Counted from the first letter of the stretch, positions 1,142-19,717 are shown. The stretch is 42,639 nt of DNA from Candidatus Nomurabacteria bacterium (GCA_943356775.1 CALRFU010000008.1:1-42639); one strand, 5' to 3'. The notes: generated from the letters alone by a model not told the origin. Numbers and translations: made by a program.

Positions 1142-1558
1142 ATGACAGCGGAAGAGACAGTCAAAAAGGCACGCAAGCCGCGTGCCAAAACTGCCAAATC
1201 GGCAGATGGCTCTTCTGCCGCACCTACTCCTCGCGCCCGTAAGGCTGATACCGCACATCGTCTCCGCATCAAGGTCCGCGCTTACGAGCACGGCATCCTC
1301 GACAAGTCGGTAAAGCAGATAATCGACACCGCTGCCCGCTACAATGCGACCGTTGTCGGCCCTGTACCGCTCCCTATCGATATCAAGAAGTACACCGTCA
1401 ATCGAGCCGCCTTCATCGACAAAGATTCCCGCGAGCAATTCGAGATGCGCATCCACAAGCGCATGATAGATATTTTGAATCCCGACCCGAAAGTCATCGA
1501 AGCGTTGACCAACATCGACCTTCCGTCCGGAGTGAGTATAGATGTAAAGATGATGTAA
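1142..1558 (+). CDS. rpsJ: 30S ribosomal protein S10 with basic N-terminal extension
   Basis: RLRIKVRAYEHGILDKSVKQIIDTA...VVGPVPLPIDIKKYTVNRAAFIDKDSREQFEMRIHKRMIDI is S10. Confidence 0.93.
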   Translation: MTAEETVKKARKPRAKTAKSADGSSAAPTPRARKADTAHRLRIKVRAYEHGILDKSVKQIIDTAARYNATVVGPVPLPIDIKKYTVNRAAFIDKDSREQFEMRIHKRMIDILNPDPKVIEALTNIDLPSGVSIDVKMM

Positions 1559-1944: not shown

Positions 1945-1975
1945 CCGAGGCTCAGCAAATGTGAGCGACATGAGG

Positions 1976-2000
1976 AAGGGTGCCTTTAGGGGCGCCCTTC
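1976..2000 (+). terminator. Terminator of small Cys-rich gene
   Basis: AAGGGTGCC tttagg GGCGCCCTT then T-rich. Confidence 0.6.
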
Positions 2001-2003
2001 TAT

Positions 2004-2204: not shown

Positions 2205-2206
2205 AA

Positions 2207-3562
2207 TTAATATCGATAGATGTTCTTGAGGGGAAGCCCCACCGGCGGCGCTTCCGGCGGCGCTTTTATCCACGTATTTTTACCGAAAGCTTTGTACTCA
2301 AGCGAGCAGGCGTCAGATTCGTCGATGATACGGTAAAAGGGTTCGCCATTTATCGAGTGGTCAAATGTCATCGCGATACGCGGAATGTCAGTCGAGCACA
2401 GATTCTTGAGCGCTCGCCAATGTTGATACGGATCGCAGCGTTGCCACGAGATGGCGGATTCTACCCGTTCCTCGCGCACCCACTGGCCATTTTCCTCGTA
2501 CACGTCTTTTTTCACAACACACTCACGAGTGGTGCACGTACTTCCCGCAAGTGTCTCAGACGAGCTCTTCGTGAGCGTAATTTCGGGCGCATAGAAGTAC
2601 CGTACCGCCATAACGCACTGATGGTTCGAGTCAAACATCCACATTCCGTAGCGATTGTTCGCCGTCGTCATTCGTACCGTATCGACATCGTGTTTCAAGC
2701 TCGGTATCTGCAGCAAAAAGAGCGCGACCACAACTATCCAACCCGCGGCGGATTTCCAAGAAAGAGGAGGTCGTTGGTACCGGTACATCGGACCGAAGAG
2801 TATGAGGAGTGGAAGCAGGGAAGCTGCGGGATAATTGTAGAGGACAAGGGTGCCTGAGTAGAGATGAAAGATCGTGAAGTAGACGAGGGAGAGACGTTGC
2901 GCGATTTTGTGTTTGGAGAGAAGGAACCAACACCCGACGACTTGTTCGAATATAACGCTGTTTGTTAGGAGTGGAGTGAGCGCATCGGGAAAGAGAGGAA
3001 GACCGGATTGTAGGGAGGAGAAATATGTACCAAGTATCCAAGACGGATAGAATTTTATCGTCGCAGAAACGAAGTACAGAGTGACAAAAATTATTTTTGT
3101 GAAGTATTCTTTATGGGGGAGGAAAAGCAGGGAGGCAGTAAGAACAAGATGATACGTGTCGTACATGCCGAGTATCGTGTAGCTGAGCACGTACCCAACG
3201 AACGCCTTCCAAAGGAAGAGCAAAAGGAGGAGCATGTGTGCCCGCGCCCAGTGCCCGCGCCACATGAGATATACAATGCTGAGCATGATCCCGAACATCC
3301 CCATGTAAAAGGTCGTGTGTGAGTACCCGCTCGGTAGATAGTGCAGAAAATAAAGCCGTCCGCATTCTTGGAAATACGGCCAACAGACGGCGTTCGTTGC
3401 GCGCTCGACGGTGATAGCCGAAGAACCCATCCACTGTTGGAAGGTGACGAAGAAATAGAAAAGCAAACCGCCAAAAAGCCATTGAAGAGTCGTATTTTCT
3501 TCTATCTCACGGATAGAGAGGATGCGCCGGTACACTTGCTCGATGTTTCGAAGGAAGTTCAT
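2207..3562 (-). CDS. Polytopic membrane protein, possibly HTTM/vitamin-K-carboxylase-like
   Basis: Multiple TM segments; ATIKFYPSWILGTYF resembles the HTTM K..DW motif; first ATG (MNFLRNIEQVY) at 3562. Confidence 0.5.
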   Translation of the reverse strand: MNFLRNIEQVYRRILSIREIEENTTLQWLFGGLLFYFFVTFQQWMGSSAITVERATNAVCWPYFQECGRLYFLHYLPSGYSHTTFYMGMFGIMLSIVYLMWRGHWARAHMLLLLLFLWKAFVGYVLSYTILGMYDTYHLVLTASLLFLPHKEYFTKIIFVTLYFVSATIKFYPSWILGTYFSSLQSGLPLFPDALTPLLTNSVIFEQVVGCWFLLSKHKIAQRLSLVYFTIFHLYSGTLVLYNYPAASLLPLLILFGPMYRYQRPPLSWKSAAGWIVVVALFLLQIPSLKHDVDTVRMTTANNRYGMWMFDSNHQCVMAVRYFYAPEITLTKSSSETLAGSTCTTRECVVKKDVYEENGQWVREERVESAISWQRCDPYQHWRALKNLCSTDIPRIAMTFDHSINGEPFYRIIDESDACSLEYKAFGKNTWIKAPPEAPPVGLPLKNIYRY

Positions 3563-3564
3563 AA

Positions 3565-5223
3565 TCAAAAGCGTTTGCGGAGGCAGTAGAGTTCGTTTGC
3601 AACCGTGGGCACAAAGAGCGTCCGAGCCTTTTCGTCGTACGCTATCGCGTTAACTATCCTCTCGGTTGCCTGGAAGAACGAGCGAGGCTCGCCGTTTTCG
3701 GGTGCGAGTTCGTAGAGCCTGCCGTCATTTGAACCTATCCAAAGCGAATCAAGCGCAAGAACGGGCGATGAGAAAATACGACCATGAGTGAGGAAAGTCC
3801 ACACCACTTCTCCTCGGTCGAGAGAAAGCGCATAGAGGTTCTTATCAAGGGATGCGGCATACACCAGGTTCCCCACGACGAGTGGGGTAGAAAATACCGG
3901 CATTTCTGTTTTGAATGAAAATCGCAAGGCCCCAGAATCAGCTTCAAGGGCGTATATCGAACCATCCCACGAACCGAAAATAATAAGGCTGCGTCGCGCG
4001 TCATATGTAGCTGACGCCTTAATCGCACCACCGGTTTGGAATTTCCACCTTTCTTCCCCTGTTTTTGCGTCGTATGCATAGAGTATTCCGTCGTTGCTTC
4101 CGATGACCGTCATATTCTTTTGCTCTATATAGAAGGGGGAACCGTGCGTGTACTCAGGCATCTTGTGACCCCATACGCGCTCTCCCGTCGAGAGTCGTAA
4201 TGCAACGATACCGCCACGTTTTCGGAATAAGCCGAATTCAAGACCGATGTACATCAGGTCTAGCTTAGGCGCGAGTGCCGGCGAGGAACCGACCCACTCC
4301 GCTTCCGCGTACGTCCACTTTTTATTTCCGGTACGAGTCTCGAGCGCGTACACGTTCCCATCATAGGCTCCAAAATAGACAACCTCTTTGTGTATCGCAG
4401 GGCTCGAGAAGATACCCTTCCAGCGTGGATGGGGCCCGACTTTTAAATGCCATCTGGGCGCTCCGGTTTTTTTGTCTATCGCCCAAAAAATACCATTATC
4501 GCTGCCCACGTATACATGGTCACGATCTACGGCTGGTGCTGATTTTTCAGTGACCATATTGAAGCTGGGCGCTCCACCACTCTGTTTCCAGATAACTTCG
4601 AAGGAATCGTGAGGTACATCCACATTTTTCTCGAGCAGAGGGATATCGAAGTCGGGCAGGGTAAATATCGAATCTATTTTTGTGCTGTCCCTCTTTACCA
4701 GCTCACTATAGGCACGCGTATCTCTAAATCTGAGTATTACGAAAATGTCTGAAACTTTCTTCCCTGCTTCTGAAAGTGCCAGGATTTGCCGACTCATCGA
4801 TTGACCGCTATTGATAGAGTCGTCGACGAGTATGGCGGGCTCATCAGTCAGCCCCCCTTCGAACATTCGCATGAGCCCATCGCGCTTACGGGATTTTCTC
4901 AGGAAGAAACCATGCACAGGTTTTCCTTTCTCGGCACCTTTAAGCACAATAGCCGTGATGAGAGGGATGGCGGCCGACTCAATTCCTCCTACTTGGAAGG
5001 GATATGCATGCTCGTATCTGCGCCAGAATTCTTCCGCTATAAAATCGAGCACCGACGCTTCGAAGACTATGGCTCTGAAATCAAAAAACCATCGGGGGTC
5101 TCGAGCGTCTCCGCCCCGAGAGGCTATCTGTATTGAGGCGTTCGGCTTGAGAAAAACTTTATCCGAGATGAGTTTCTTGAGGTCGCTTTTCTGGATTTTG
5201 TGTCGATTCTCCGGAGGTGTCAT
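3565..5223 (-). CDS. Fusion: N-terminal phosphoribosyltransferase (OPRTase-like) + C-terminal PQQ-type beta-propeller
   Basis: PRPP-loop AILVDDSINSGQSM; then repeated YxxDxKTGxxxW blades (FWAIDKKTGAPRWHL, VYALETRTGNKKWTY, LYAYDAKTGEERWKF, IYALEADSGALRFSF, LYALSLDRGEVVWTF). Confidence 0.8.
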   Translation of the reverse strand: MTPPENRHKIQKSDLKKLISDKVFLKPNASIQIASRGGDARDPRWFFDFRAIVFEASVLDFIAEEFWRRYEHAYPFQVGGIESAAIPLITAIVLKGAEKGKPVHGFFLRKSRKRDGLMRMFEGGLTDEPAILVDDSINSGQSMSRQILALSEAGKKVSDIFVILRFRDTRAYSELVKRDSTKIDSIFTLPDFDIPLLEKNVDVPHDSFEVIWKQSGGAPSFNMVTEKSAPAVDRDHVYVGSDNGIFWAIDKKTGAPRWHLKVGPHPRWKGIFSSPAIHKEVVYFGAYDGNVYALETRTGNKKWTYAEAEWVGSSPALAPKLDLMYIGLEFGLFRKRGGIVALRLSTGERVWGHKMPEYTHGSPFYIEQKNMTVIGSNDGILYAYDAKTGEERWKFQTGGAIKASATYDARRSLIIFGSWDGSIYALEADSGALRFSFKTEMPVFSTPLVVGNLVYAASLDKNLYALSLDRGEVVWTFLTHGRIFSSPVLALDSLWIGSNDGRLYELAPENGEPRSFFQATERIVNAIAYDEKARTLFVPTVANELYCLRKRF

Positions 5224-5327
5224 GAAGTGACATTATGGCATAGGGGTCGAATAGGGAAAACCGCTCGCACGATAGGCTTTTCCACAAGAAAACCAAGGGG
5301 TCTTGTTTTGCATGCTATCTTTACTAT

Positions 5328-5600
5328 ATGTCGTTCCTGTTTTCTCCAGAATCTAGCCTGCGCGTCTTTTCGAGACGCATTGCGGGTTTGGGATTGCTCG
5401 CACTCGGGCTAGCTATCATTCCGCTCGCATCTTCAAAAAGTGATTTTCATATCGGCGAATACAAGATTGATGAAAGCGTAGCGCACGCGGACGTGCCGTA
5501 CGCTGAGGCCGCGTATTACGCCGAAGCATCATATGGGGGCGGAGGTGAAGGCGGAGAGGGGGGTGAAGGCGGGGAAGGAGGAGAAGGCGATTGTCCGTAA
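5328..5600 (+). CDS. Small membrane-anchored/secreted Tyr- and Gly-rich peptide (peptide A1)
   Basis: N-terminal TM; AHADVPYAEAAYYAEASYGGGGEGGEGG..; extended -10 TGCTATCTT ends 6 nt before ATG. Confidence 0.65.
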   Translation: MSFLFSPESSLRVFSRRIAGLGLLALGLAIIPLASSKSDFHIGEYKIDESVAHADVPYAEAAYYAEASYGGGGEGGEGGEGGEGGEGDCP

Positions 5601-5606
5601 TACTCC

Positions 5607-6788
5607 ATGGAGCCTACCACTTCAAATACGAGCATATATACCACAGTCGCAACTGCGCTCATTTTTGTTGCGATTGGCGGGGCTCTTGTTTATTGGGGGG
5701 CGCCGATTGTGCGAGGATGGGCGGAGAAATCCGCGAGTGATGCGCGTCGAGCAGAATTCCAAGATATCAATGAAACCGTTGCTATGCAGTTTGAAGGTGA
5801 CTTCGCAGGCTCGGCGCAGCGCGCGGAGGGCATGAGGGGTGAGATAGGGACGGGCACCGTGAATTATCAGAGAAATATCACCGCACTCGCAACTGCAGAA
5901 TTCTGGTCGGGCGAAAAGGAAAAGAGACTCGAGGCGGTACGCCTCACAAAAGAGCAGCTCGCTTCCGCTCCGGGCTCGAAGCGGAATCAAGCACTGCTTA
6001 TCAATCGCCTCATTGGCTACATGACGACGGCTATGGAGCCAGAGATAATCGCTGAAGTGTTCAAGGGCGAGCCATTTCAAACTCTCTACGACGCAAAGAA
6101 CGATACCGATTCTATATTCAGCAATCTGGCCCTCGAATCAATTTCTCGTTACCCCACGACCGCAGCGAATGCTCGGGTTGGCATATGGCATTCCGGTAAG
6201 ATCTTTAAGGACTACGACGGAATAGCGGAACTCTCAAAACAGGAAAAAGTCGAGCACATACAGGGCATATTGTATCGAATAGAGGAGATGAACCGATTAT
6301 TTCCTTCGGAACGGAAAATCCCAATGCTCTATTCGCAGCTTGCAGAAGCGCAGTTCGCATATTATCAGGGGTTCATGTACGGTGCTCTCTCGCTGACGAA
6401 TCCCGAATATCTTGATGACATGGAGGGTGCATTTTCGAAGGTACACGAGGAGTATCGCGTTGAAAGGAATGACGAAGGAAAACCGGTAGCCTTACTTGAA
6501 TCTCGCATTCCGTATACCAATTTTGCCTATGCCACGTACCTCAATGCGGTAGCGGGATCAACGCGAAAGGCTGATGTGGAGAAGCTCTTGGCGCAGGTAA
6601 TTGAACTTGTGACCGAACATCCGGATATACACAAGGGCGCGTTCCTTTCATTCATGAAGCAAACGGCAGTAGACGGTAGTGAGGGCACGAGTGGTCGTTG
6701 GTACAGCTACGATCGCTTCGTTCGCATGGCAAAAATATATCCTCCTTTCAAGACATTTCTCAATCAGAACGGGTGGAATTTAAAATAA
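5607..6788 (+). CDS. Membrane-anchored helical (TPR-like?) protein T1
   Basis: N-terminal TM, long helical remainder; IAEVFKGEPFQTLYD..PPFKTFL similar to T2. Confidence 0.7.
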   Translation: MEPTTSNTSIYTTVATALIFVAIGGALVYWGAPIVRGWAEKSASDARRAEFQDINETVAMQFEGDFAGSAQRAEGMRGEIGTGTVNYQRNITALATAEFWSGEKEKRLEAVRLTKEQLASAPGSKRNQALLINRLIGYMTTAMEPEIIAEVFKGEPFQTLYDAKNDTDSIFSNLALESISRYPTTAANARVGIWHSGKIFKDYDGIAELSKQEKVEHIQGILYRIEEMNRLFPSERKIPMLYSQLAEAQFAYYQGFMYGALSLTNPEYLDDMEGAFSKVHEEYRVERNDEGKPVALLESRIPYTNFAYATYLNAVAGSTRKADVEKLLAQVIELVTEHPDIHKGAFLSFMKQTAVDGSEGTSGRWYSYDRFVRMAKIYPPFKTFLNQNGWNLK

Positions 6789-6796
6789 AAAACTTA

Positions 6797-6835
6797 AACC
6801 CCCGGCAGTCGCACTGACAGCCGGGGGTTCTTTCT
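6797..6835. terminator. Strong (possibly bidirectional) terminator between T1 and symporter
   Basis: AACCCCCGGC..GCCGGGGGTT followed by TCTTTCTT. Confidence 0.75.
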
Positions 6836-6860
6836 TGTAGGCGACGTACATGTCGCAAGA

Positions 6861-8312
6861 TCAGATTGCTTTTCGCGGGTTCGATGCGAGCCGCTGCCGC
6901 TTTTCTTCGGCGCCGACCATGGCACCGACCGCGCACGACAGGAGTGGCCATACGAGCGCAAAGAGCGCGCCCGCAGACTTCCCGTGCACCTTCGTGAACG
7001 GCAGAATATCGGCAATTGCGCCGCCGGGGTAGATCCAACCGAGCGTAAGCAGGATTCCGCCTGCCCAGCCGATCAGCATTCCCCAGAACACGCTCTCACG
7101 CACCGTGTACGGTGCGAACATGGCGAACACCAAGGGGAAAATTGCTTCGCCCCGGATGACCGACATGCTCTCCTGCAACAGCCTGACGTCGATCTTCTCG
7201 AAGCTGGTGAGATAGGTACCAGCCACAATTGGAATCAACATCGCCACGCGGCTCCATTTGACGGTCTGTCGGTCACTCGCGTCGCGGATGAACCAACGGT
7301 TGACGATCTCGATGGAGAACACGTCGCCTGCGCTCGCTAGCAGTGATGCGAGTGCTGTCGCGAGGATCGCGATGATGATGAGCGTGACCCCGATGAGCCC
7401 CCATTCCGGGAGCACGTCACGTAGAATCGTGAGCATCGGCAATTGCCCACCCGTCAGCTTGTAACCGAGCGAGCGGGCGAGGAAGCCGAAGGAGCCGAAG
7501 ACGAGGGCGGCAAGTGCGAACAGGAAGCCGCCTCCGAAATAGGCCATGCGCACGTTCTGCGCCTGCACGGCATATGCGCGCTCGGCAAGGTCCGGATTGC
7601 AGATTGGACCACCGAGAAGCGAAATGCCGAGTGGTACGCCGACGAACCACAGCACGTCCCACGCCGACATCGGCGAGGCCGCGATGGCCGGTCCCTGCGA
7701 CGCGAAGTCGTGGGTGCCGAGCAGAATCACGACCGCAATCGAGAACGCGCCGATGAGCGCGACCTTGACCTTGTCGCCGAGTATTGCGCCGAGGAGTCCG
7801 CGCGGTACCACCAGAAGAAATGCGGCGGCACCGATGATGACGGACATTTCCCACGGCGGTACGCCGGTAAGCTGCGAGAGCCACTGGCGGATGCCGGTCA
7901 GGGTGTAGGCGACGGCGAAAATGAGCGCTCCGAAGGTGGAGAAGAACATCATCGTCCGTGCGCCCGGTCCGAAAATGGACCCAATCGCTTGCGCGATGGT
8001 GTACCATTTTTCGCCGCGATCCCGCATCATCTGCTGAAGTTTCGGCGCGAGGATGCCCATCAGGATCATCGCCGCGACGTTGGGCAGGAGAAGCGCGAGA
8101 AAGTGATACGGCCCCTGGTAGGCGAGTGCGCCGGATACGATTAGTGCCGGCGCCTGGATCCAATTTGCCGTAAGCGTGAGGGTCCCGACGAAGGGACCGA
8201 CATTACGATCCGCGACCAGGAAGGATTCGCCGGTCGGCTGCTCCTTCTTGTGCGAAAGTGCCCACAGCAGGAAGATCCCTGCCGCGGCCACGAACAACAT
8301 GATGAAACCCAT
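6861..8312 (-). CDS. Sodium:solute symporter (SSF) family permease
   Basis: Many TM segments; FLVADRNVGPFVGTLTLTANWIQAPALI typical of the SSF N-terminus; SD-like AGAGAGG upstream of ATG. Confidence 0.8.
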   Translation of the reverse strand: MGFIMLFVAAAGIFLLWALSHKKEQPTGESFLVADRNVGPFVGTLTLTANWIQAPALIVSGALAYQGPYHFLALLLPNVAAMILMGILAPKLQQMMRDRGEKWYTIAQAIGSIFGPGARTMMFFSTFGALIFAVAYTLTGIRQWLSQLTGVPPWEMSVIIGAAAFLLVVPRGLLGAILGDKVKVALIGAFSIAVVILLGTHDFASQGPAIAASPMSAWDVLWFVGVPLGISLLGGPICNPDLAERAYAVQAQNVRMAYFGGGFLFALAALVFGSFGFLARSLGYKLTGGQLPMLTILRDVLPEWGLIGVTLIIIAILATALASLLASAGDVFSIEIVNRWFIRDASDRQTVKWSRVAMLIPIVAGTYLTSFEKIDVRLLQESMSVIRGEAIFPLVFAMFAPYTVRESVFWGMLIGWAGGILLTLGWIYPGGAIADILPFTKVHGKSAGALFALVWPLLSCAVGAMVGAEEKRQRLASNPRKAI

Positions 8313-8404
8313 TGGTTCGACCTCTCTCTTTCAGTTGCGCCTGTGTCATTCAAGAACAGGCTACAGGCACCATATCAAATACGGGCGGGAAGCGGAACTA
8401 TTGT

Positions 8405-9505
8405 CTAGGCAAAATCGTTGTCGGGTTCGAGGTAGCTTTTTGGCGGCAGGTCGTCGCTATAGTGCATATTCTCGTCGAGAAAGTTGAATGCGGTCTGTTG
8501 TCTCGTGATGAACGCCCGCGAACCTTTCTTCGTTTTCTTATCGCGGTATTCCGCATCCTTCGTGAATCCGTAGATGACGTCCTTGCTGACCCACTTGTAG
8601 CTCGGCCACGTATCCTTGATGCGCTTGTCCAAATTATTCATGCTCCACAGCTGGAAGTCCCCGGTATTGTAAAAAGACTTGAAGTGCGTCTCGAGGTAGT
8701 TCGGGCCGATGCCGGGCACATTTCTCTTGGCGACGAACATAAGCGTGTACATAACAACGGCCTGCCACTTCAGCGCAAAATTAATCCACCACAGATACTC
8801 GAAATTCGTGGTCAGCGGTACGGGGGACGCATCTTTCAGCCGCTCGAAGAGATCGAGATAAAAATTGGTGACGCGGTCCTCATTGCCGAAGCTTTTCCCG
8901 AAAAATTCGAAGAATGTTTCGCGCCTGTACGGCTGATGGATTGCGCCGGGGCCGTACGTAAGTATGAGACGACCGACCTTGTCGGACCCCATGACCTGGT
9001 CGTTGTTCTCGCCGGAGAGCACGAAGTCTCCGGTGCCGAGTATATAGGGAAACATCGTGCTCGATTCCACGCGCAGATTGCCGCGGATGTGCTCGTCGAA
9101 GAACCGCGGATTTTCCATGATGGATTCCTGTGAGAGGAGGACCACGATACGTTTTTTTTGGCTCGCGGTCGCTTGCTTCAGCAGGGAGACGAGCATGCAC
9201 GTACTGTCGATGCCGCCCGAGTAAAAAACGTACACGTCTTTATTCAGTGTGTCCGCGTGCGCGAGCATCTCTTTCGCGCGGTCATTGCAGATATCCTCGT
9301 AGCTTTTCGTAAACGGGCGGAAGGTCGCGAGCGGGTAGAGCGATTTTGTGCGCACAGGTGTCTTGATAGTACTCGTGCGGTCAATGGGCAAGACCCATCC
9401 TCCATAGAGGCGAAAAAAATGGGAAAACATCTCGACGTCGGACAAATGTCTGTTGCGCTCCAGCATTTGGGGAGGGTTTATGTATATAAATCGAGGTTCC
9501 GACAT
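8405..9505 (-). CDS. Asparagine-synthetase-like PP-loop ATP-pyrophosphatase, no glutaminase domain (B1)
   Basis: VFYSGGIDSTCMLVSLL (PP-loop), GENNDQVMGSD (cf. G-x-G-D-E-L-F-G); paralogous to 13555..14646. Confidence 0.75.
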   Translation of the reverse strand: MSEPRFIYINPPQMLERNRHLSDVEMFSHFFRLYGGWVLPIDRTSTIKTPVRTKSLYPLATFRPFTKSYEDICNDRAKEMLAHADTLNKDVYVFYSGGIDSTCMLVSLLKQATASQKKRIVVLLSQESIMENPRFFDEHIRGNLRVESSTMFPYILGTGDFVLSGENNDQVMGSDKVGRLILTYGPGAIHQPYRRETFFEFFGKSFGNEDRVTNFYLDLFERLKDASPVPLTTNFEYLWWINFALKWQAVVMYTLMFVAKRNVPGIGPNYLETHFKSFYNTGDFQLWSMNNLDKRIKDTWPSYKWVSKDVIYGFTKDAEYRDKKTKKGSRAFITRQQTAFNFLDENMHYSDDLPPKSYLEPDNDFA

Positions 9506-9516
9506 ATGTCTTTAGT

Positions 9517-10158
9517 TTAGAGAAACCGAGTGAATTCTATGCGAATTGCTTCGAGCTCCTGCTCGTTTTTCGCATGCTTCACTTTATTGAAATATTTCAT
9601 ACGTAATTTCTCGTTCTTTGCGAGAAATTCGTGGTCGAGCTGTGCCTGTAGCAGTATTTCCTCCACTGCACGTTCAATAGAGATTCCGAGCTCGTCCGCG
9701 TAATACACTACATAGGGAGACTGAATGATGAGTTTGGGGTCGAATCCAGAGTCTTTGAGTCGGCGAGCCTGTGCCTCTTTGCTGACATATATGAGCTCTT
9801 GGAAATCCAAACCACTTCGTACCTGATTTCGATATTGATTGATGCGCTCCATCATGTAAGAAATAGTTTTTAGTTTCTCTGTCAGGAGTACTGCTCTTTG
9901 GCGTAATTCTTCCGTCACCGCCTCTGGATGTGTCTTACAGAATGTACGGTCTTTATCCGACCACGACCATGTCGGGTATTCTCTCGGGGATGTGCCAAAA
10001 AGAGGCATACTCTGAGGGTAGTTCGGGATATTGGCAGCCGCGATGTGCTCGGTGTCCATGGTGCATTCGTGCACAAACTGCACGGCAGCGGGATGCCAGC
10101 TCAGAGTAAGAACCGTGTCCGAGCTTGTGTCAACGAGGATACTGAGTTCGCGCGGCAT
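9517..10158 (-). CDS. Unknown partner protein P1 of PP-loop module
   Basis: ATG at 10158 (MPRELSIL), TACAAT 6 nt upstream; YPTWSWSDKDRTF paralogous to YPEYVWSWKDRTV of P2. Confidence 0.65.
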   Translation of the reverse strand: MPRELSILVDTSSDTVLTLSWHPAAVQFVHECTMDTEHIAAANIPNYPQSMPLFGTSPREYPTWSWSDKDRTFCKTHPEAVTEELRQRAVLLTEKLKTISYMMERINQYRNQVRSGLDFQELIYVSKEAQARRLKDSGFDPKLIIQSPYVVYYADELGISIERAVEEILLQAQLDHEFLAKNEKLRMKYFNKVKHAKNEQELEAIRIEFTRFL

Positions 10159-10270
10159 GGTGCGATTGTACCGCAGATGTTGTCCCCAACAACACAAGAA
10201 TCGTGGAAGGAATCCACGTTTTTATCCCCACGTGGGCGACACCCCTCTTTACCGTGCTACAATATTTTAT

Positions 10271-10480
10271 ATTAGGTGGATAAAAGGGTCGGCGCTCGCT
10301 CTCTTTGCCGTTGTGGGAAGTGGCATCGTGGCGGCGTACGCGCACGTGTTTGGCTTCGGCACCGGTGTCGCTATTGAACCCTCCCAGATTCTTGGCGAAA
10401 AAGTATTTGCAGACGTTCCGTACAGTCAGGCGAGTTACTATGCCGAAGGGTCTTATTATATCCCTGGTGGTGGGGGCTGA
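10271..10480 (+). CDS. Small Tyr/Gly-rich membrane/secreted peptide (peptide A2), predicted AUU start
   Basis: (I)RWIKGSALALFAVVGSGIVAAY..KVFADVPYSQASYYAEGSYYIPGGGG*; no nearby ATG in frame; TGCTACAAT ends 7 nt before ATT. Confidence 0.5.
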   Translation: MRWIKGSALALFAVVGSGIVAAYAHVFGFGTGVAIEPSQILGEKVFADVPYSQASYYAEGSYYIPGGGG

Positions 10481-10523
10481 TACTGCGCCAGTTACTTAGC
10501 ACGGATGTTTTTATAATCCACGT

Positions 10524-11651
10524 ATGAATAGTATTTACAAAATTCCCGCCCTGCTCGCCATTTTTTTCGCTCTCCTACTCAGCGGGTTCTTTTTCTATTT
10601 ACAAAATAGCGCAAGACAACAAGAGGAGTTTGTTCAGATTCCTGACCCCGAAACATCGCGGGTCAAGCAAATCTTGTCACTAACGAGAAGTGGTGATTAT
10701 GCTCCAGCGGCAGCAGAGGTGGATGCTCTTTTGGCAAAACAGGCCGCCGGAGAAATTCTCTCGGAGCAAAAGCAGGCATCTCTCAATAGACGTTACCTTA
10801 TCAAATACAGAGTTTCCGGTAATAATACAGACGCCATTGAGTATCTCCGCCGACTCAAAGCAAATGTTTTGAACGTAAATTTACCAGCAGAATCACGTGC
10901 GGAAGACCTCTCTCGGCTCGCCCTTACATACTGCAGTTTTGCGCGCGACGAAGGGACACTTCGGGAAATATTTACCGGTGAGCCGTTTGAGCAATACTGG
11001 GTAGAGGGGGATGGTGCGCTTTCGACGCGAAAGTTGTTGGAGTGGGCTTACAATGATGTGGACCCTTCTCCTCGAACAGCCCTCGACTTAGCCCGTTGGT
11101 ACGTAAACCGCGCAATCATCAGACCTCTAGACTCAGAAACAAAAACACAGTACATCAAGTTAGCAAAAAGTTATGTTGCTGAGGGCGAGGAGCTGAATCG
11201 TGAAGATGTCGCGGCGGATGGGGATAAGTATCTCCTTACTCGGCGCTACGCGGCTTATCTTTACTGGCGCGCTTTCACAATGCACGCCCTTATGATGTTG
11301 GGGGACAAAACCTACGAAAAAGAAGCAAAAACAGCATACGATGATTTTCGGAGAACTGTTCTAGAACAGAACAACGCATCCTCATTGCAATTGCTCCCCT
11401 ATTCATACGTTGTTCAGGCAAACTTCATCTCGAAATTGTACGGCGACAAGGAGACTGCCAAGGTACTGCTTGCAAAAGCTATGCAGCTTGTGCGTGCTGA
11501 TCCCTACCGCCACACAAACGAATTTGAAGAGTTTACGCGTGATACGTGGGGTAACGCGTGGGCGGGGCTCGTCACGGCTGCTATCCGTGACATGATGGAC
11601 GTCTCCCCAGAGTTTAAGGAGTTTATTGAGAAAGAAGTACTCTCCGGATGA
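10524..11651 (+). CDS. Membrane-anchored helical protein T2
   Basis: N-terminal TM; LREIFTGEPFEQYW..SPEFKEFI parallels T1; TATAAT 6 nt before ATG. Confidence 0.7.
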   Translation: MNSIYKIPALLAIFFALLLSGFFFYLQNSARQQEEFVQIPDPETSRVKQILSLTRSGDYAPAAAEVDALLAKQAAGEILSEQKQASLNRRYLIKYRVSGNNTDAIEYLRRLKANVLNVNLPAESRAEDLSRLALTYCSFARDEGTLREIFTGEPFEQYWVEGDGALSTRKLLEWAYNDVDPSPRTALDLARWYVNRAIIRPLDSETKTQYIKLAKSYVAEGEELNREDVAADGDKYLLTRRYAAYLYWRAFTMHALMMLGDKTYEKEAKTAYDDFRRTVLEQNNASSLQLLPYSYVVQANFISKLYGDKETAKVLLAKAMQLVRADPYRHTNEFEEFTRDTWGNAWAGLVTAAIRDMMDVSPEFKEFIEKEVLSG

Positions 11652-11672
11652 TGGATCCGTCTGACCCATGTC

Positions 11673-12836
11673 ATGAGTCGTAGTCTTCAATTACACAGGC
11701 GGGCATTTGTTGCTACCGTAGTAGTATGCGCCATCGCAGCGACTTGGTTTTGGTGGTCGGGGACGAGCGACCCGCTCGCGTCAGCTCTTCGCCCTTCGGA
11801 ACAGAGCAGAATACGGCAATATATTGATGAGGAGCTCCCGTCTCGGACGTGGATGAGGTATGCTAAAAGCGTCGTTCAGGATCATGAATACCCCCCAGCA
11901 CAGGCGGCACGGATTTACGCGTACATCGCATCGGCTTACAGTGATGTCTATGACGCCACGGATGATAAGCGGCAGGCAATGCGAGCACCGTGGTACGTAA
12001 TTACGCACCTCTACCCTTATACAAAGCGAGACGCGACACTCTTGCTCGTGGCGATTCAGGATAACTCGGAGGTAACGCTTTCTCCGAAAGCGACGGAGAT
12101 TGTTGACGCATACAAAAAGCGCTGGGACGAGAAAGAATCTCACGGTCACCCGGATGTGGTAATTCCGACAAGAAAAGATTTATGGATTCCGGTGACAGAA
12201 AAGGGGGCACACATCGATCCGCTAGATCCGAACGCTGGCTCGTGGCCACGGTGGATAATTACGAATGATACGTTTGATATGCCGGCTCCGCCGGCTGTGG
12301 GGAGCGCAAAGGACGCGGAAGAGATACAAAAAATGAAGGACAGTCTTGCGCAGAGGGAAGCATGGCGTGAAAGGATTTTTATATGGTGGGGCGGAAAGGG
12401 GACAGGCACTCCTTCGTGGCAGTGGCAAGACATTATGTACGATGTTGCGGCAGGCACGATGGACGATAAGGCCTATGCGCGTTATCAGAAAAACCTTGCG
12501 CAGGCGCTTGCCGACACATTCATCATTTGTTGGGATGAGAAATTCATTTACTGGAGTGCTCGACCGTGGATGCGCATTCCCGGTTTCAAACCTATTGCGG
12601 AAACACCTCCGTTCCCGGGCTATCCGTCGGGGCATTCCACTGTCTCTGCTTCAGCCGCAGTCGTTCTCGGCGCGTGGTTCCCGGAGCATGCAGCGGACTT
12701 CATGGCTATGGCAGAAGAAGCTCACGACACGCGTCTTTATGCCGGGATTCACTTTGAAATCGACAACACCGAAGGTTTTGCTCTCGGCAAGAGAATCGGC
12801 GAGCGCTTGCTTGAGAAGATTGACATACGTAAATAA
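11673..12836 (+). CDS. Vanadium-dependent haloperoxidase / PAP2 superfamily protein
   Basis: KFIYWSARPWMRIP, FPGYPSGHSTVSASAAVVL, DTRLYAGIHFEIDNTEGFALGKRIG match the K..RP / PSGHS / R..GIH active-site motifs. Confidence 0.8.
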   Translation: MSRSLQLHRRAFVATVVVCAIAATWFWWSGTSDPLASALRPSEQSRIRQYIDEELPSRTWMRYAKSVVQDHEYPPAQAARIYAYIASAYSDVYDATDDKRQAMRAPWYVITHLYPYTKRDATLLLVAIQDNSEVTLSPKATEIVDAYKKRWDEKESHGHPDVVIPTRKDLWIPVTEKGAHIDPLDPNAGSWPRWIITNDTFDMPAPPAVGSAKDAEEIQKMKDSLAQREAWRERIFIWWGGKGTGTPSWQWQDIMYDVAAGTMDDKAYARYQKNLAQALADTFIICWDEKFIYWSARPWMRIPGFKPIAETPPFPGYPSGHSTVSASAAVVLGAWFPEHAADFMAMAEEAHDTRLYAGIHFEIDNTEGFALGKRIGERLLEKIDIRK

Positions 12837-12892
12837 TCTTCCAGCCAGGACATAGATCTCGTGATATACTCGCAGCGTGAGAGAGATTATCT

Positions 12893-13558
12893 ATGCATGC
12901 TTATCATGCGATCTTAGATAGCGAAACAAAAACGTTCCTTGCGCTTGGAACAAACCCAGGTGTCCTGGTGCAGGTTCATGAGTGCACACCGGGGACGTTG
13001 CTTTACATGATGGTCAACCGTCCCGTCTACAAGAACGGTTTTCCTCTCGAGCATAGCGACCCGGCAACGTATCCGGAATATGTATGGAGCTGGAAAGATC
13101 GCACCGTTACGAGGCAAGACACGCCGCCTTCTCCTGCGTTACGGGCGACATCGGCCCTTGCAGTTCTAAAGATGAAGGCATTCACGCGTATTGCCAACAA
13201 AATAAGCCGCTCTCGTATGAAACTGGACACTGGCGTTGAAATGGCGGAGACTGTTCTGCGACTGAAGCGCGATGAGGCCTCCCGCTTCAAGGAATCAGGA
13301 TATGACGAATCGCGGATTTTCGAATTTCCATATCTTATGCAATTTGCTGAGTACAGTGGCATACCATACTCGGCAATCGCGGACGACATCCTCTTAGCGG
13401 CTCGTATGGATGAGGAGGTGCTCGTCAAGACGGAAATATCACGCGTGAAGTACGTCGAATTGGTACAGCGAGCGAAAACGGTGGCAGATGTTGAGAAATA
13501 TATGCTGGAGTTCGATAACTTTGACGGCGCGAATACTCGTGTACGTATGGCCGCATGA
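12893..13558 (+). CDS. Unknown partner protein P2 of PP-loop module
   Basis: Paralog of P1 (KDRTV.., EASRFKESGYDESRIFEFPYLMQFAEYSGI); TGATATACT upstream; stop overlaps next start (ATGA). Confidence 0.7.
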   Translation: MHAYHAILDSETKTFLALGTNPGVLVQVHECTPGTLLYMMVNRPVYKNGFPLEHSDPATYPEYVWSWKDRTVTRQDTPPSPALRATSALAVLKMKAFTRIANKISRSRMKLDTGVEMAETVLRLKRDEASRFKESGYDESRIFEFPYLMQFAEYSGIPYSAIADDILLAARMDEEVLVKTEISRVKYVELVQRAKTVADVEKYMLEFDNFDGANTRVRMAA

Positions 13559-14646
13559 AGCTCGTATTCTATAATCCGGTTTTGGTGAGAGATGAGAGTA
13601 ACCGGCATCTTCCCGGCATGGAGCGTTTTTCGACATTTTTTAAGTTTTACAATAACGCCGTAGTACTACTCGATAGAACAGGCACGTTGAAGATTCCTAT
13701 CCAGACCCAGTCAGTCTTTCCCATACCGGCCCTTAGACCCTTCTCGAAAACTCTGGAGGAGGTGTGCAACGAACGCGCGTGTGAGCTGCTGAGGCACGTA
13801 GATAAGCTCGGAACCCCTCTGTATGTCCTCTATTCGGGTGGTATTGATAGCACCTTGGTTCTCGTATCCCTCCTTAAGAATGCCACACCGTCTGAGAAAA
13901 AGAATATTATCGTACTGCTGAACAAGGAGTCCATACAAGAGAATCCGTCCTTTTATGCAGATCACATACGCGGTCAATTGCGCACGGAATCGTCCGGGAT
14001 GTTTGGCTTTCTTATGGGCACTAACAATGTCTTCGTCGGTGGCGAGTGCGGTGACCAATTGTTCGGCACGGATCGCCTTTTGGACATCATTACTCGTTTT
14101 GGTGGTCAATCTCTTCACGCGCCATACTCGAGGGATATTTTCTTCACATATTTTAACTCATCACTCAACGACGGCGACCTCACCAACTACTGGCTAGATA
14201 TATTCGAACGCTTAAAAGGCGCCGCCACGGTTCCTATCACTACGAACGCTGAGTTCATCTGGTGGATTAGTTTTGCACTCAAGTGGCATGCTGTGTTTTT
14301 CCGCATTCTGTCGTACGCATCCAGTCGGAATGCCCCGAACATCTCGCGAGCGTATGTCGCGACTCGCTACTTTCACTTCTACAATACGGACGATTTCCAA
14401 TTATGGAGCCTGAATAATCCGGACAAGAAAATCAGGGACACGTGGCGGTCATACAAATGGCCATGCAAGGATATCATCTATGATTTTACGAAAGACGCCG
14501 ATTATCGCGACAATAAGACTAAGCACGGCTCGCAGTTTTTCCTCTTAAAGCACATGGAGCCGCACAATTTTATAGACGATTCCTTTCATTTGTACCGCAC
14601 ACTCGATGCGAAGCAGTATTATAATCCGGACAACGATTTTTTGTGA
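13555..14646 (+). CDS. Asparagine-synthetase-like PP-loop ATP-pyrophosphatase (B2)
   Basis: VLYSGGIDSTLVLVSLLKNAT, GGECGDQLFGTD; strongly similar to B1 along its length. Confidence 0.78.
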   Translation: MKLVFYNPVLVRDESNRHLPGMERFSTFFKFYNNAVVLLDRTGTLKIPIQTQSVFPIPALRPFSKTLEEVCNERACELLRHVDKLGTPLYVLYSGGIDSTLVLVSLLKNATPSEKKNIIVLLNKESIQENPSFYADHIRGQLRTESSGMFGFLMGTNNVFVGGECGDQLFGTDRLLDIITRFGGQSLHAPYSRDIFFTYFNSSLNDGDLTNYWLDIFERLKGAATVPITTNAEFIWWISFALKWHAVFFRILSYASSRNAPNISRAYVATRYFHFYNTDDFQLWSLNNPDKKIRDTWRSYKWPCKDIIYDFTKDADYRDNKTKHGSQFFLLKHMEPHNFIDDSFHLYRTLDAKQYYNPDNDFL

Positions 14647-14652
14647 TACTTC

Positions 14653-15429
14653 TCATCGGGTCAGACCAACCCCGCGTTGTGAAAGGTACATCGCACCTGC
14701 GATACTAAGAGTAGTTGCCCCCACAAGTACGAGTAAGCTCAGGCCTATACCCGCATCCGATACGCCGAGTACTCCATATCTGAATCCGTTTATAAGGTAA
14801 AACGTCGGGTTCCATTCTGATGCGGTTGCTGCCCACGGCGAAAGGTACGTGATTGAGTGGTAGACACCACCGATATAGATTGCCGGCGTAATGACAAAGA
14901 CATTTACCATCGATATATTCTCAAGGCTAGTGCTGCAGAGTCCCGCAATGACGCCGATGAAGGCGAAGCATATGCTGGTGAGTACAAAGAAAAAGAGTGC
15001 GGTGAATGGGTGCACAATCGACAGCGGACTTAAGAAGAGTGAGACAAGCAGAACGATACAGCCGACTAAGAGTCCGCGAACTACACCTGCAGATGCGAAT
15101 CCGACGACGATAACCCACGGGGGAATCGGCGCGACGAGCATCTCGCTGATGTTGTTCCAGACGATACGAGCGGAGAAGAGATTCTTGGCGACATGGACGA
15201 ATGTATTAATCATTACCGCAAGTAATATAACTCCAGGTATTACGAATTCGATAAACGGAACTCCCCGTATTGTGCCTATTTTTTCTCCGAGAATGCCTCC
15301 GACTACCAAGAAAAAAAGCAGCACGGTCACAATAGGCGTGACAAGGGTCTGAAAAGGAATCCGGAAAATCTTTTCAGATTCCTTAAAAAAAATGGTTGTG
15401 TAAGCAATCCAGATGCGACGACTACCCAT
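14653..15429 (-). CDS. ABC-2 type transporter permease
   Basis: Six-TM ABC-2 topology, LVTPIVTVLLFFLVVGGIL; no adjacent ATPase; TACTAT 7 nt before ATG 15429. Confidence 0.75.
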   Translation of the reverse strand: MGSRRIWIAYTTIFFKESEKIFRIPFQTLVTPIVTVLLFFLVVGGILGEKIGTIRGVPFIEFVIPGVILLAVMINTFVHVAKNLFSARIVWNNISEMLVAPIPPWVIVVGFASAGVVRGLLVGCIVLLVSLFLSPLSIVHPFTALFFFVLTSICFAFIGVIAGLCSTSLENISMVNVFVITPAIYIGGVYHSITYLSPWAATASEWNPTFYLINGFRYGVLGVSDAGIGLSLLVLVGATTLSIAGAMYLSQRGVGLTR

Positions 15430-15480
15430 GTCGCTCATAGTACCGACAAAATCGTCAAATCAATAGATAGAGGCAATAGG

Positions 15481-15510
15481 AAAAGCCCGCCAGGTGACCG
15501 GCGGGCTTTC
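15481..15510 (-). terminator. Terminator of small Cys-rich gene (minus)
   Basis: GAAAGCCCGCCggtcacctGGCGGGCTTTT on minus strand. Confidence 0.7.
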
Positions 15511-15531
15511 TTCGCGTCGTAGGCGCAGAGC

Positions 15532-15768: not shown

Positions 15769-15876
15769 CGGATCGCTCCCTTGGGATGAGGCATCCATAC
15801 GCGAGGATGCTGTCGAAATTCTACCACTCAATGCGTCTTTGTCAATACAGCCGTATCGGCGTGGTATCTTTGCTTC

Positions 15877-16518: not shown

Positions 16519-16524
16519 TACATT

Positions 16525-17352
16525 ATGTTCTCCAGTCGCGTGTATCAACTCTTCATGCGTCACCGCATCAAGACGATTCTCGTCGTGGTCATATGCGCAC
16601 TCACGGGGGTTACGTTTTTCCATACGATTGAAATTGCACTCGAGAAAACATCTCTTGCGCTTTTTCCGTCTGCGCAGCGTGCTTTTGATTATGGGGAACG
16701 GCATTTTAATGCCAGAACTCGTGGCGAATACGATATTGTCGCCGCTGAATATTTTTTTGGAAAAGCGGCGGATATCGACCCAAAGACTCCGTATCTCTTT
16801 CACGAGCTTGCACGTATCGCGTTTCTGAAAGGGGATTTTGAGGTAGCTATGGCACTCATAAACTCACAGATAGACCTCATGGGGGACAGTGCTCCGAATT
16901 CATACTACATACGCGCTTTAATAGAGGGGTATAAAGGCGATTACGTCGCTTCTGCGGAGGACTACAAGTACTTCCTGAAATTCCAACCCACTAATTGGGC
17001 GGCGGTTAATGATTATGCCTGGGTACTCCTGAAGGCGGGGAAGGCGAAAGAGGCTTCCGATGCGACCGCACGTGCGCTTGAGTGGTTCCCGGAGAATCCG
17101 TGGCTTCTGAATACACATGCGACGGCCCGGTACGAATTGCATGATTATGAAGGAGCTCTTCTCTCGGCGCAAAAGGCGTCAGTCGAGGTCGCCACACTTT
17201 CGGAAGCCGAGTGGCTCCAGGCATATCCCGGCAACGATCCAAAGATCGCGGATAGAGGAATTGTCGCTTTCCAAAAGGCTGTCCGGGATAATATACACAG
17301 CATTACCCTCGCACTTACCACAAGTGCGGTACAATCTACGGTACAGCCATGA
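16525..17352 (+). CDS. TPR-repeat protein with N-terminal TM
   Basis: Tandem helical repeats (FLKFQPTNWAAVNDYAWVLLKAGKAKEASDATARALEWFPENPWLLNTHA). Confidence 0.7.
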   Translation: MFSSRVYQLFMRHRIKTILVVVICALTGVTFFHTIEIALEKTSLALFPSAQRAFDYGERHFNARTRGEYDIVAAEYFFGKAADIDPKTPYLFHELARIAFLKGDFEVAMALINSQIDLMGDSAPNSYYIRALIEGYKGDYVASAEDYKYFLKFQPTNWAAVNDYAWVLLKAGKAKEASDATARALEWFPENPWLLNTHATARYELHDYEGALLSAQKASVEVATLSEAEWLQAYPGNDPKIADRGIVAFQKAVRDNIHSITLALTTSAVQSTVQP

Positions 17353-18458
17353 GACATCACTTGCGCAAACTCGCGACACGAGCTCATCTTTTTCCTGCGA
17401 AGAAGGAATTAATCTTTACAGTCATTGTTATTGTTGTCGCGTTCGCACTGCTGGCCACCGCGCCCTCCGCGCAGAAGCCATTCTCTTCTTCGGAAGTTCA
17501 ATTTACCGACCCGTCCGTGCGTGGGCTTGCGATTGTCCCTGCATCATGCCCTTCGACTCCGCACGGCAGCGAAGTATGTGACGTCGCTGCCAATCAGAAC
17601 TGTTCGCTTTCTGCGACGAGCGCGACTATCACGGCCGGGCAGAGCACGACACTGCAATGGTCTGTCACACAGCCCGCGTATCTCGCCGCATTATTCCCCT
17701 CGAGCTTTAGCGGCAACATTTCACCAGGTGGCGGCACCGTCTCGACGTGGACTGGTTCGAGGAGTGTGACCCCATCGCTGACCACCACGTACGTGCTAAA
17801 TGGCACCGTCGCCGTCGCCGTTCCGTGGTTTGGCAGTCTTCGTACCGGGTCGGCACAATGCCAGACCACCGTTACCGTGCTGTGCCCTACAGGAACGTAC
17901 TCATACAACGGCGCCTGTGTTCCCGGTTGTCCTGCCGGGTATTACCAATACAACGGAAGTTGTGTTGCGTCATGTCCGGTCGGATACGTTGCTCAGAGCG
18001 GCGTGTGTGTTTTCAGCGCGTGTCCGAGCGGATATGAACAGCAGGGGACTCAATGCGTGAGTACTACGCCCGCGTGTTCGACCCTCAATTACTGTGTGGG
18101 AAGCACGTTGTGGCAAAGAGATTCATCATGCGCTACAGAGCCGATTTTGACGTGTTCCGCGGGTTGTTCCGCCGGGGCGTGTATCGGCACTGCGGGGCCC
18201 GGTGTGGTCGTCTGGCAGGTACGTCCACCACTCGTTAATTCGGGCGAAAGGGCGAATGTGAACTGGCAGGTAACCGGGGTGCGCTCGTGCGAGGTGCGTG
18301 GCAACAACGGAGATGCGTGGAGCGGTCTATCCGGTGCGCAGGCCTCGAGCCCGATCATCGCGCCAACGACTTTCACACTGACTTGCATTGGCCTCGATGG
18401 TTCTGTTGTGACGCGAGCAGCGACTGTCAACATAGTGCCTATATTCCAGGAGCAATAG
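17349..18458 (+). CDS. Secreted surface protein: Ig-like domains flanking tandem Cys-rich repeats
   Basis: N-terminal TM; SATSATITAGQSTTLQWSVT..; CPxGxYxxxGxCV x4; start overlaps previous stop (ATGA). Confidence 0.65.
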   Translation: MRHHLRKLATRAHLFPAKKELIFTVIVIVVAFALLATAPSAQKPFSSSEVQFTDPSVRGLAIVPASCPSTPHGSEVCDVAANQNCSLSATSATITAGQSTTLQWSVTQPAYLAALFPSSFSGNISPGGGTVSTWTGSRSVTPSLTTTYVLNGTVAVAVPWFGSLRTGSAQCQTTVTVLCPTGTYSYNGACVPGCPAGYYQYNGSCVASCPVGYVAQSGVCVFSACPSGYEQQGTQCVSTTPACSTLNYCVGSTLWQRDSSCATEPILTCSAGCSAGACIGTAGPGVVVWQVRPPLVNSGERANVNWQVTGVRSCEVRGNNGDAWSGLSGAQASSPIIAPTTFTLTCIGLDGSVVTRAATVNIVPIFQEQ

Positions 18459-18485: not shown

Positions 18486-18971
18486 ATGAGTTCCGCACGT
18501 TCTCTTCCCAGCGCACTTCTCCTCCTCCTGATTCTTGTTCCACTGTTTGCGTCAGTCCCGTTTTTTGCTCACGCACAAACGCCTGACAATGATTTACGCA
18601 CGACTATTCGCGCCGAGCTTCTGAGTGACCCCCGCACATCAAGCTTGTCGGAGGTCCAGGTAGATACCCTCGTCGACCTGCTTGCACAAGAAGCACAGAA
18701 GCAGGGCATAACATCGCAGGATATTCAATGGCGTCCGCAGAGCACCGAGCGATTCGTCGCTACCGAAAGTGCGGCACCCGAAGCGCCTGCGTGTATGGGA
18801 GGATTTCTCTGTATCATGAGCGAAGCATTCGGTTTCGTAGGTGCCGACACCACTATTCCGTTCACCCTCGGAGCTGCCTCTATGGGTCTCGTTTGGATTC
18901 TGGCTGAAATGATTCACCGCCGCAGACATCCAGCAGGAGTTCCTGTGAGCACACCCGTCTCAGGTCTATAG
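18486..18971 (+). CDS. Small secreted/membrane protein, unknown
   Basis: Signal peptide, C-terminal TM; TGCTATACT 8 nt before ATG. Confidence 0.55.
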   Translation: MSSARSLPSALLLLLILVPLFASVPFFAHAQTPDNDLRTTIRAELLSDPRTSSLSEVQVDTLVDLLAQEAQKQGITSQDIQWRPQSTERFVATESAAPEAPACMGGFLCIMSEAFGFVGADTTIPFTLGAASMGLVWILAEMIHRRRHPAGVPVSTPVSGL

Positions 18972-18973
18972 AG

Positions 18974-19001: not shown

Positions 19002-19039
19002 GCCTCCACCCACGTCCCACAATAATGTCTGCGCTACGC

Positions 19040-19097
19040 GCGGGCGGGACCAATGGCAGGCTTCTACGAGCCCGCTATTGCGGGCGTTTCTTTTTTC
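19040..19097 (+). promoter_or_regulatory. Candidate leader attenuator upstream of rplC
   Basis: GCCCGC tatt GCGGGC GTTTCTTTTTT (19070-19096) with an identical upstream GCGGGC (19040-19045) able to pair with the 5' arm. Confidence 0.5.
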
Positions 19098-19102
19098 AAA
19101 AT

Positions 19103-19717
19103 ATGAAATTCATCAAAAAGTTTATGTTGGGCACCAAAGGAAGAATGACCCAAGTCTTCGATGACAAAGGGATTGTTTCCGCTGCAACAATCGTTACTGC
19201 GGGTCCTCTTACCGTGACTCAAATCATGGGGAAGGAAAAGCAGGGCTATGAGGCTGTCCAAGTCGGCTTCGGCGCCAAGAAAGAGACCAAGGTCAACAAA
19301 GCACAGACAGGTAAACCCTTCCGCGTATTGCGTGAATTTCCTCTCGAATCCGGTGCCACAGCCCCGGAGGCTGCGTCCACCATCGATGTCTCGATTTTCG
19401 TTCCCGGGGACGTCGTCGCAGTGTCCGCAATCTCAAAAGGTAAAGGATTCCAAGGCGTCGTGAAGCGACACGGATTCAGCGGAGGTCCGCGCTCTCACGG
19501 TCAGAAAAACAAAGAGCGCTCACCGGGCTCTATCGGCGGAGGCGGTCGCGCAGGCGGTCGTGTCGTCAAAGGTATGCGCATGGCCGGACGCATGGGCGGG
19601 GACCGCATCACGGTGAAGAATCTCAAAGTCTTGCAAGTGGACGTCGCCACAAATACACTCGTCATTTCAGGTGCTCTACCGGGCAAACCGGGGACACTCA
19701 TCGAAATCCGCGCGTAA
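19103..19717 (+). CDS. rplC: 50S ribosomal protein L3
   Basis: MKFIKKFMLGTKGRMTQVF..GGPRSHGQKNKERSPGSIG. Confidence 0.95.
   Translation: MKFIKKFMLGTKGRMTQVFDDKGIVSAATIVTAGPLTVTQIMGKEKQGYEAVQVGFGAKKETKVNKAQTGKPFRVLREFPLESGATAPEAASTIDVSIFVPGDVVAVSAISKGKGFQGVVKRHGFSGGPRSHGQKNKERSPGSIGGGGRAGGRVVKGMRMAGRMGGDRITVKNLKVLQVDVATNTLVISGALPGKPGTLIEIRA

Follow-up and report, generated by a model that had tools for sequence, protein, structure and literature searches.

A candidate RiPP-type peptide island of a Candidatus Nomurabacteria bacterium and its phage-shared asparagine-synthetase-like enzyme pair

Introduction

Asparagine-synthetase-like (AS-like) enzymes are known to tailor RiPPs by C-terminal amidation, nitrile formation and lasso cyclisation, the lasso cyclases, the TsrC/ScdTA amidases and the nitrile synthetase PesC being documented examples (PMC13060819). 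Among the RiPPs matured by MNIO enzymes, precursors with a Sec signal are the hallmark of the bufferins (PMC12452194; Patescibacteria are unmentioned in its text), and the presence of YcaO-containing RiPP clusters in CPR genomes generally has been reported in an acid-mine-drainage study (PMC12153355). Few secreted products are known from Patescibacteria, whose ultra-small cells mostly depend on a host.

The window analysed here is a stretch of 42,639 nucleotides from a Candidatus Nomurabacteria bacterium (GCA_943356775.1 CALRFU010000008.1:1-42639). A preliminary description had proposed, for positions 5328 to 14646, a peptide-processing system in which duplicated modules of a protein P and an AS-like PP-loop protein B are arranged around Tyr/Gly-rich small peptides and a haloperoxidase. 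The reading favoured in the present work, with a probability of roughly 0.55, is that the P-B pair constitutes an ATP-dependent, amide-forming accessory module that was recruited into an export-leader RiPP island.

Gene content and genomic site of the island

All genes named in the preliminary description are intact open reading frames (Table 1), but the unit to which they belong is larger: the island extends from approximately 1.6 to 19.0 kb of the window (about 17 kb) and is bounded by the ribosomal protein genes rpsJ and rplC. The proposed paralogies held for A1/A2 (37% identity, including the common ADVPY..A.YYAE.SY...GGGG and a Gly-rich tail), T1/T2 (23%), P1/P2 and B1/B2, the last pair being alignable from end to end and retaining SGGIDS and GExxDQxxG; P diverges much faster than B (31% versus 51% identity between the window copies). 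P is located directly 5' of B in both pairs, the reading frames of P2 and B2 being coupled by an ATGA overlap as described before, and no further B copy was found in the window's own genome (811 kb, 14 contigs). None of the proteins A, T, P and B could be assigned to a confident family of Pfam, NCBIfam, PHROGs or PADLOC, and a reading of the locus as a defence system received no support from PADLOC.

Table 1. Features of the island and its flanks (positions counted from the first nucleotide of the window).
Feature	Position	Strand	Remarks
rpsJ (ribosomal protein S10), left island boundary	1211..1555	+	tblastn; flank conserved in relatives
H, conserved polytopic membrane protein	2207..3568	-	homologues 45-52% identical in L008 and L096
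PRTase domain fused to PQQ-type beta-propeller	3565..5223	-	PQQ_2 2e-40; PyrE-like PRTase 3e-13
A1, precursor-like peptide	5328..5600	+	membrane/Sec-type N-terminal leader, AHAD junction, Tyr/Gly/Glu-rich core
T1, membrane-anchored helical partner directly 3' of A1	5607..6788	+	
SSS-type sodium:solute symporter homologue	6861..8312	-	co-directional with P1-B1
B1, AS-like PP-loop synthetase without glutaminase domain	8405..9505	-	fold predicted for paralogue B2
P1, constant partner of B, phage-type protein	9517..10158	-	
A2, precursor-like peptide, core DVPYSQASYYAEGSYYIPGGGG	10157..10480	+	start codon uncertain
T2, membrane-anchored helical partner directly 3' of A2	10524..11651	+	
Vanadium-haloperoxidase/PAP2-type enzyme	11673..12836	+	N-terminal hydrophobic anchor; K, RP, PSGH and TR..GIHF motifs
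P2, partner of B2	12893..13558	+	AF2 pLDDT 95.8
B2, AS-like PP-loop synthetase, ATGA-coupled to P2	13555..14646	+	AF2 pLDDT 96; Foldseek
ABC-2 type transporter permease, system membership uncertain	14653..15438	-	PF01061 5e-22
TPR protein, conserved in islands	16525..17352	+	TPR_19 5e-11
Cys-rich exported protein, conserved in islands	17349..18458	+	
Small exported membrane protein, island end	18486..18971	+	similar ORFs in L007 and L097
rplC (ribosomal protein L3), right island boundary	19025..19717	+	flank conserved in relatives

In every island of the window's genus for which both flanks were seen (the window, L179 on the same contig as L007, L096/L097, L180, L182 and L191), rpsJ stands on one side and rplC on the other, and one of the two flanking genes was seen beside many other islands of the genus; the island occupies a fixed site within the ribosomal-protein operon of an ultra-small bacterium. 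The genes recurring around B relatives are those of the PRTase-PQQ protein, T, the TPR protein, the Cys-rich exported protein, H and the symporter. The PRTase-PQQ protein (PRT), with its conserved VDD..NSG motif, is the most widespread island marker and was detected in 22 of the 397 genomes of the order sample and in 18 of the 52 genomes of the window's genus. H recurs in islands, has no Pfam match and appears HTTM-like by eye.

Precursor-like peptides and RiPP maturases of related islands

A is positioned directly 5' of T in about 25 pairs across islands, mostly from the same genus and order. Throughout these A peptides an N-terminal hydrophobic segment and a signal-peptidase-like AxAD junction are kept, while the core is hypervariable: Tyr-rich in the window, Cys-rich in L008 (AHADVPEAACGACGCGGSCGDC), Gly/Asp-rich in L122 and Tyr/Trp-rich in G730 (AYADAPYSQASYYSQADYGWW). 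A feature of RiPPs, the short precursor with conserved leader and variable core beside maturation genes, is present across the A-T pairs. For A2 of the window no ATG, GTG or TTG occurs just 5' of the membrane segment; the closest in-frame upstream ATG, at position 10157, overlaps the start of P1 on the opposite strand. YSQASY-like motifs are present also in a YcaO island without P-B (L194), and the Tyr-rich peptides of the window therefore belong to the general A family; comparison by eye of P-B-positive with P-B-negative islands revealed no A-core signature that tracks the presence of P-B.

In homologous islands, A-T pairs adjoin recognised RiPP maturases. The L008 island encodes a TOMM SagD-family YcaO protein (1e-50) together with a SagB-family peptide dehydrogenase above the NCBIfam cut-off, and the L005 island a YcaO protein and two nitroreductases; in the P-B-positive L007 island, an Os1348-like partner accompanies an MNIO maturase that matches the bufferin model at 1e-56 but stays below the equivalog cut-off. 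YcaO was also found in 9 of 18 further PRT-positive regions of the order and in 9/13 P-B-negative regions of the family. The A cores beside YcaO, SagB and MNIO contain Cys residues, a composition that suits those enzymes. The RiPP maturases of the sister islands provide the strongest evidence for A as a modified peptide, and they uphold the earlier suggestion of a peptide-modification and export locus. Based on the A-T layout, the PRTase-PQQ context and the maturases of the relatives, A1 and A2 are very probably RiPP-type precursors; the island is likely to be of RiPP type, and the peptides of the whole 17-kb stretch are very probably chemically modified and exported.

The tailoring enzymes differ from island to island, being YcaO plus SagB, MNIO, or neither; in the window island YcaO, SagB and MNIO are all absent and no RiPP maturase was recognised. 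Of the well-covered P-B-positive islands, the two that lack both YcaO and MNIO are those of the window and G730, and P-B is therefore the leading candidate for modifying the Tyr-rich A peptides of these two.

The AS-like synthetase B

B1 and B2 (366 and 363 amino acids) gave no GATase match, in agreement with the initially reported lack of a glutaminase domain; PF00733 matched neither of them nor any other protein of the own genome. The Foldseek search with the AF2 model of B2 pointed to an AS-like fold, the ranking being hydroxyamidotransferase TsnB9, beta-lactam synthetase, carbapenam synthetase and asparagine synthetase; the match to TsnB9 (E 2e-4, Foldseek probability 1.00) had a modest TMq of 0.39, and the profile alignment of B with AsnB (hhalign) was confident around the PP-loop region only. 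According to the model, B would be an AS-like PP-loop synthetase. Across 50 B sequences SGG.DS, Glu164, Asp167, Lys301, Lys321 and Lys323 are invariant, and G163, I97 and Q168 are nearly so. Glu164 and Asp167 presumably correspond to residues of the asparagine-synthetase motif GEGxDE, and Lys301 is a possible catalytic lysine, a mapping based on family knowledge. From the known AS-like RiPP enzymes, which form amides (PMC13060819), we infer that B would do likewise by ATP-driven adenylation of a carboxyl group.

The partner protein P

The AF2 model of P2 found no match among PDB structures (Foldseek). Its best match in BFVD was an uncharacterised Caudovirales protein (TM 0.79/0.85), followed at lower similarity by cyanophage and DUF4376 proteins; P thus resembles phage proteins only. 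The matching protein of Prochlorococcus phage P-HM2, 248 amino acids in length, is probably PHM2_099 (weak HMM support), which is located among structural and fibre genes.

P could be a dedicated partner or adaptor that guides B. Alternatively, P itself might be the substrate, in that B would ligate a small molecule imported by the SSS symporter to a tail-fibre-associated type of protein for surface decoration, and in the island to a cell-surface partner; the much faster evolution of P compared with B, the fold matches confined to phage proteins (including that of P-HM2 and, weakly, DUF4376) and the strict coupling of P and B would agree with such a role. However, no conserved acceptor residue is visible across 53 P sequences and P has no obvious export signal, which renders this alternative improbable.

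Neither an McjB-type protease nor an RRE was recognised in P (Pfam, NCBIfam, PDB fold search). An AS-like enzyme beside small peptides, and YcaO/SagB in related islands, might bring to mind an ordinary lasso-peptide or TOMM cluster; in view of the missing McjB-type protease and RRE, the lack of lasso precursor features and the absence of YcaO from the window, such an assignment is highly improbable, and both readings were rejected for the window.

Distribution of P-B in cellular genomes and viruses

A scan of 84,980 species genomes recovered B relatives in five loci, of which the four with a named lineage all belong to Patescibacteria; genus-level searches added further relatives in the window's genus. 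P-B is present in 10 cellular genomes, in nine of them in an island context. In the order sample the pair was found in 2/397 genomes, both PRT-positive (2 of the 22 PRT-positive genomes; three more B matches, which were marginal at approximately 5e-4 and covered no more than the PP-loop part, were left out), and in the genus B was found in seven of the 52 genomes, six of which also encode PRT. The co-occurrence of P-B and the island gave Fisher p values of 0.005 in the genus and 0.002 in the order sample. In the seventh genus genome, G778, PRT is absent and P-B lies beside A, T, TPR, YcaO and SagB; P-B is thus situated inside or beside island genes in all seven P-B genomes of the genus.

Among viruses, 414 contigs of IMG/VR encode a B relative. 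P is located immediately 5' of B in 80 of the 81 viral loci examined, usually with overlapping reading frames, and the loci adjoin genuine phage genes (DNA polymerase, PhoH, portal, major head protein). Beside P-B, a cupin gene occurs in 22 of 54 viral representatives; further neighbours are a second PP-loop family, radical SAM, aminotransferase IV, alpha/beta hydrolase, methyltransferases and symporters, and GNAT-like and desaturase-like genes were noted by eye only. A, T and YcaO are absent among the conserved neighbour families of the viral loci. The viral scan with the P alignment was unproductive, P being too diverged, and tblastn of five B queries against the 50,697 phage records of INPHARED found no close B relatives; the sole match, weak and partial, is annotated as MnmA in Pseudomonas phage Cygsa01.

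In four phage loci, P-B is accompanied by symporters homologous to the ones that adjoin P-B in islands (L074 versus L004: 30%, 2e-61). The second PP-loop protein beside P-B in G730 matches those of phages (L074: 33%, 9e-53; L077: 31%, 1e-46); P-B, SSS and the second PP-loop gene recur together in phages L074/L077 and in G730. In the mostly viral B tree, the seven cellular sequences group with the viral sequences L015 and L016 (support 99/98). Judged from these sequence relationships, P-B has been exchanged between phages and Patescibacteria, the unrooted tree being without direction. P-B is an optional accessory of the islands and mainly a phage module. The view that P and B form modules built around the peptides received no support, since P-B is optional in islands and mainly viral without A and T: the neighbourhood search located P-B in islands but A and T were absent from hundreds of phage contigs, and the wide occurrence of P-B without peptides argues against a peptide-dedicated module, but not against a peptide-modification locus.

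The viral loci also allow for the alternative that P, B and SSS are a phage-type cassette which makes an amide metabolite of its own (a metallophore, a signal or a nucleotide-like compound); in the island it would be a passenger or yield a parallel product, and A1 and A2 would stay untouched. The metabolic character of the phage neighbours, among them the cupin, radical SAM and aminotransferase IV genes, the 414 viral contigs with B relatives, and the joint travel of SSS and the second PP-loop gene with P-B are consistent with this. However, all seven P-B genomes of the genus have the pair inside or beside an A-T island though no more than 18 of the 52 genomes encode PRT; unless the island site is simply an insertion hotspot, an unrelated passenger would hardly show such a distribution, and we consider a separate metabolite rather unlikely. 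P-B joins the island to a large unexplained gene pair of environmental phages, and each context makes the other testable.

Proposed function of the island

If P-B is an amide-forming accessory module of the RiPP island, A1 and A2 would be the precursors, with the N-terminal membrane/Sec-type segment serving as leader. Modifying enzymes would work on the A core that follows the AxAD junction; the modified A would then be exported and cut between AxA and D at the signal-peptidase-like site. T, the TPR protein, H and the PRTase-PQQ protein would form the conserved membrane apparatus, and P-B an exchangeable tailoring cassette common to phages and islands. In the window, the targets of P-B would most likely be A1 and A2; for a modification of A by P-B as such, we see slightly less than an even chance.

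The window symporter is part of the P1-B1 cassette; it shares 80% identity with the SSS protein of L181 and 20-24% (1e-11 to 1e-15) with symporters beside phage P-B, and on its own gave no Pfam match. It might bring in a small solute that is used by P-B. In a wider reading, which is speculative and, as a whole, unlikely, an AS-like catalytic subunit (B) and a phage-type adaptor (P) would together make up a so far undescribed ATP-dependent ligation system, by which small molecules taken up from outside are joined to ribosomal peptides or proteins; phages would use it widely, and Patescibacteria would have recruited it into a new family of export-leader RiPP islands with a fixed place between rpsJ and rplC.

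The assignment of the enzyme between T2 and P2 to the VHPO/PAP2 type was substantiated by PF01569 (1e-8) and by its best PDB match, the vanadium-dependent haloperoxidase 4cit (6e-14); acid phosphatases share this fold and also match the protein (7f17, 2e-9). No counterpart was found in the other islands searched, the gene having been seen in the window island only. Once the Tyr-rich core has been exported, the membrane-anchored enzyme could halogenate or oxidise it, but an action on A is doubtful.

As a conserved yet variable locus at one genomic site, the island would offer candidate effectors or signals for the contact of Patescibacteria with hosts and competitors.

Comparison with known systems

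Neither the island nor the phage P-B pair was described in any paper that the literature search turned up; most subscription journals lay outside its coverage. With TOMM/LAP clusters (SagB-SagD), the homologous islands have in common the SagD-family YcaO and SagB proteins beside Cys/Ser/Gly-rich short peptides. In contrast to these clusters, the island precursors carry a membrane/Sec-type leader with AxAD junction, T, TPR, PRT-PQQ and H are additional, and the window island is devoid of YcaO. MNIO clusters of the bufferin/methanobactin type resemble the P-B-positive L007 island in the MNIO maturase, and the Sec-signal precursors of bufferins are a further point of likeness; the window, by contrast, has no MNIO, and neither the precursor family nor the set of neighbouring genes is the same.

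The haloperoxidase-type enzyme of the window has kept the vanadate-site motifs of vanadium-dependent haloperoxidases such as 4cit; unlike these it is membrane-anchored and shorter, and its activity is putative. B resembles AS-like RiPP enzymes as a putative adenylating PP-loop synthetase, in the AS-type fold suggested by its model and in its link to ribosomal peptides, but differs from them in lacking an N-terminal glutaminase domain and a PF00733 match, in its pairing with the unrelated P, and in being also phage-borne. RiPP-type islands are already known as a kind; the precursor family and the phage-shared accessory enzyme pair appear to be new here.

Genomic position and borders of the island

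The putative precursor-peptide island interrupts the S10 operon between rpsJ and rplC (window positions 1555-19025), and many genomes belonging to the genus carry it at the identical operon site (among them the window and the related loci L179, L180, L182, L191 and L096/L097). At least one other family (L139) apparently has the island at this rpsJ-rplC site too, only one flank being visible there. In the window, a transposase-like integrase ORF (2-1558; 503 aa from the ATG at 47) is in frame with rpsJ and runs into it; a transposase resembling this ORF is present in locus L006 (4197-5312). Small ORFs similar to those listed in the table were observed in L096 and L193.

Small ORFs near the island ends of the window
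Feature	Position	Strand	Location
Cys-rich ORF, export signal	1609-1944	+	near island end
Cys-rich ORF, export signal	15532-15831	-	near island end

Variation in gene content

The island of L194 (genome G805) comprises three membrane-anchored helical partners (T), two PRTase/PQQ-type beta-propeller (PRT-PQQ) marker genes, two YcaO genes and three precursor-like A peptides that have YSQGYYDPK motifs together with Cys; the precursor module was apparently duplicated recently. Among the viral contigs, L077 exhibits an apparent biosynthetic gene run (4159-17002) of a TauD-like dioxygenase, a symporter, a PP-loop gene, P-B (the phage-type partner with its asparagine-synthetase-like synthetase), two B12/radical-SAM-like genes, further PP-loop genes and a TctC-like binding protein; a TctC-like gene is also located close to P-B in the MNIO-containing island L007. 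The viral contigs L064, L065 and L084 possess three or four tandem B paralogues versus a single P.

TGA reading in a relative of the same order

In L132 (genome G584; GC 26%), a patescibacterium of the window's order, TGA is read through in long genes, and 8 of the 13 aligned in-frame TGA codons of its minus-strand PRT-PQQ frame fall at Trp or almost-only-Trp alignment columns. Together, these sequence features suggest that TGA encodes Trp in this organism, in contrast to the code of Gracilibacteria/Absconditabacteria, in which TGA encodes Gly.
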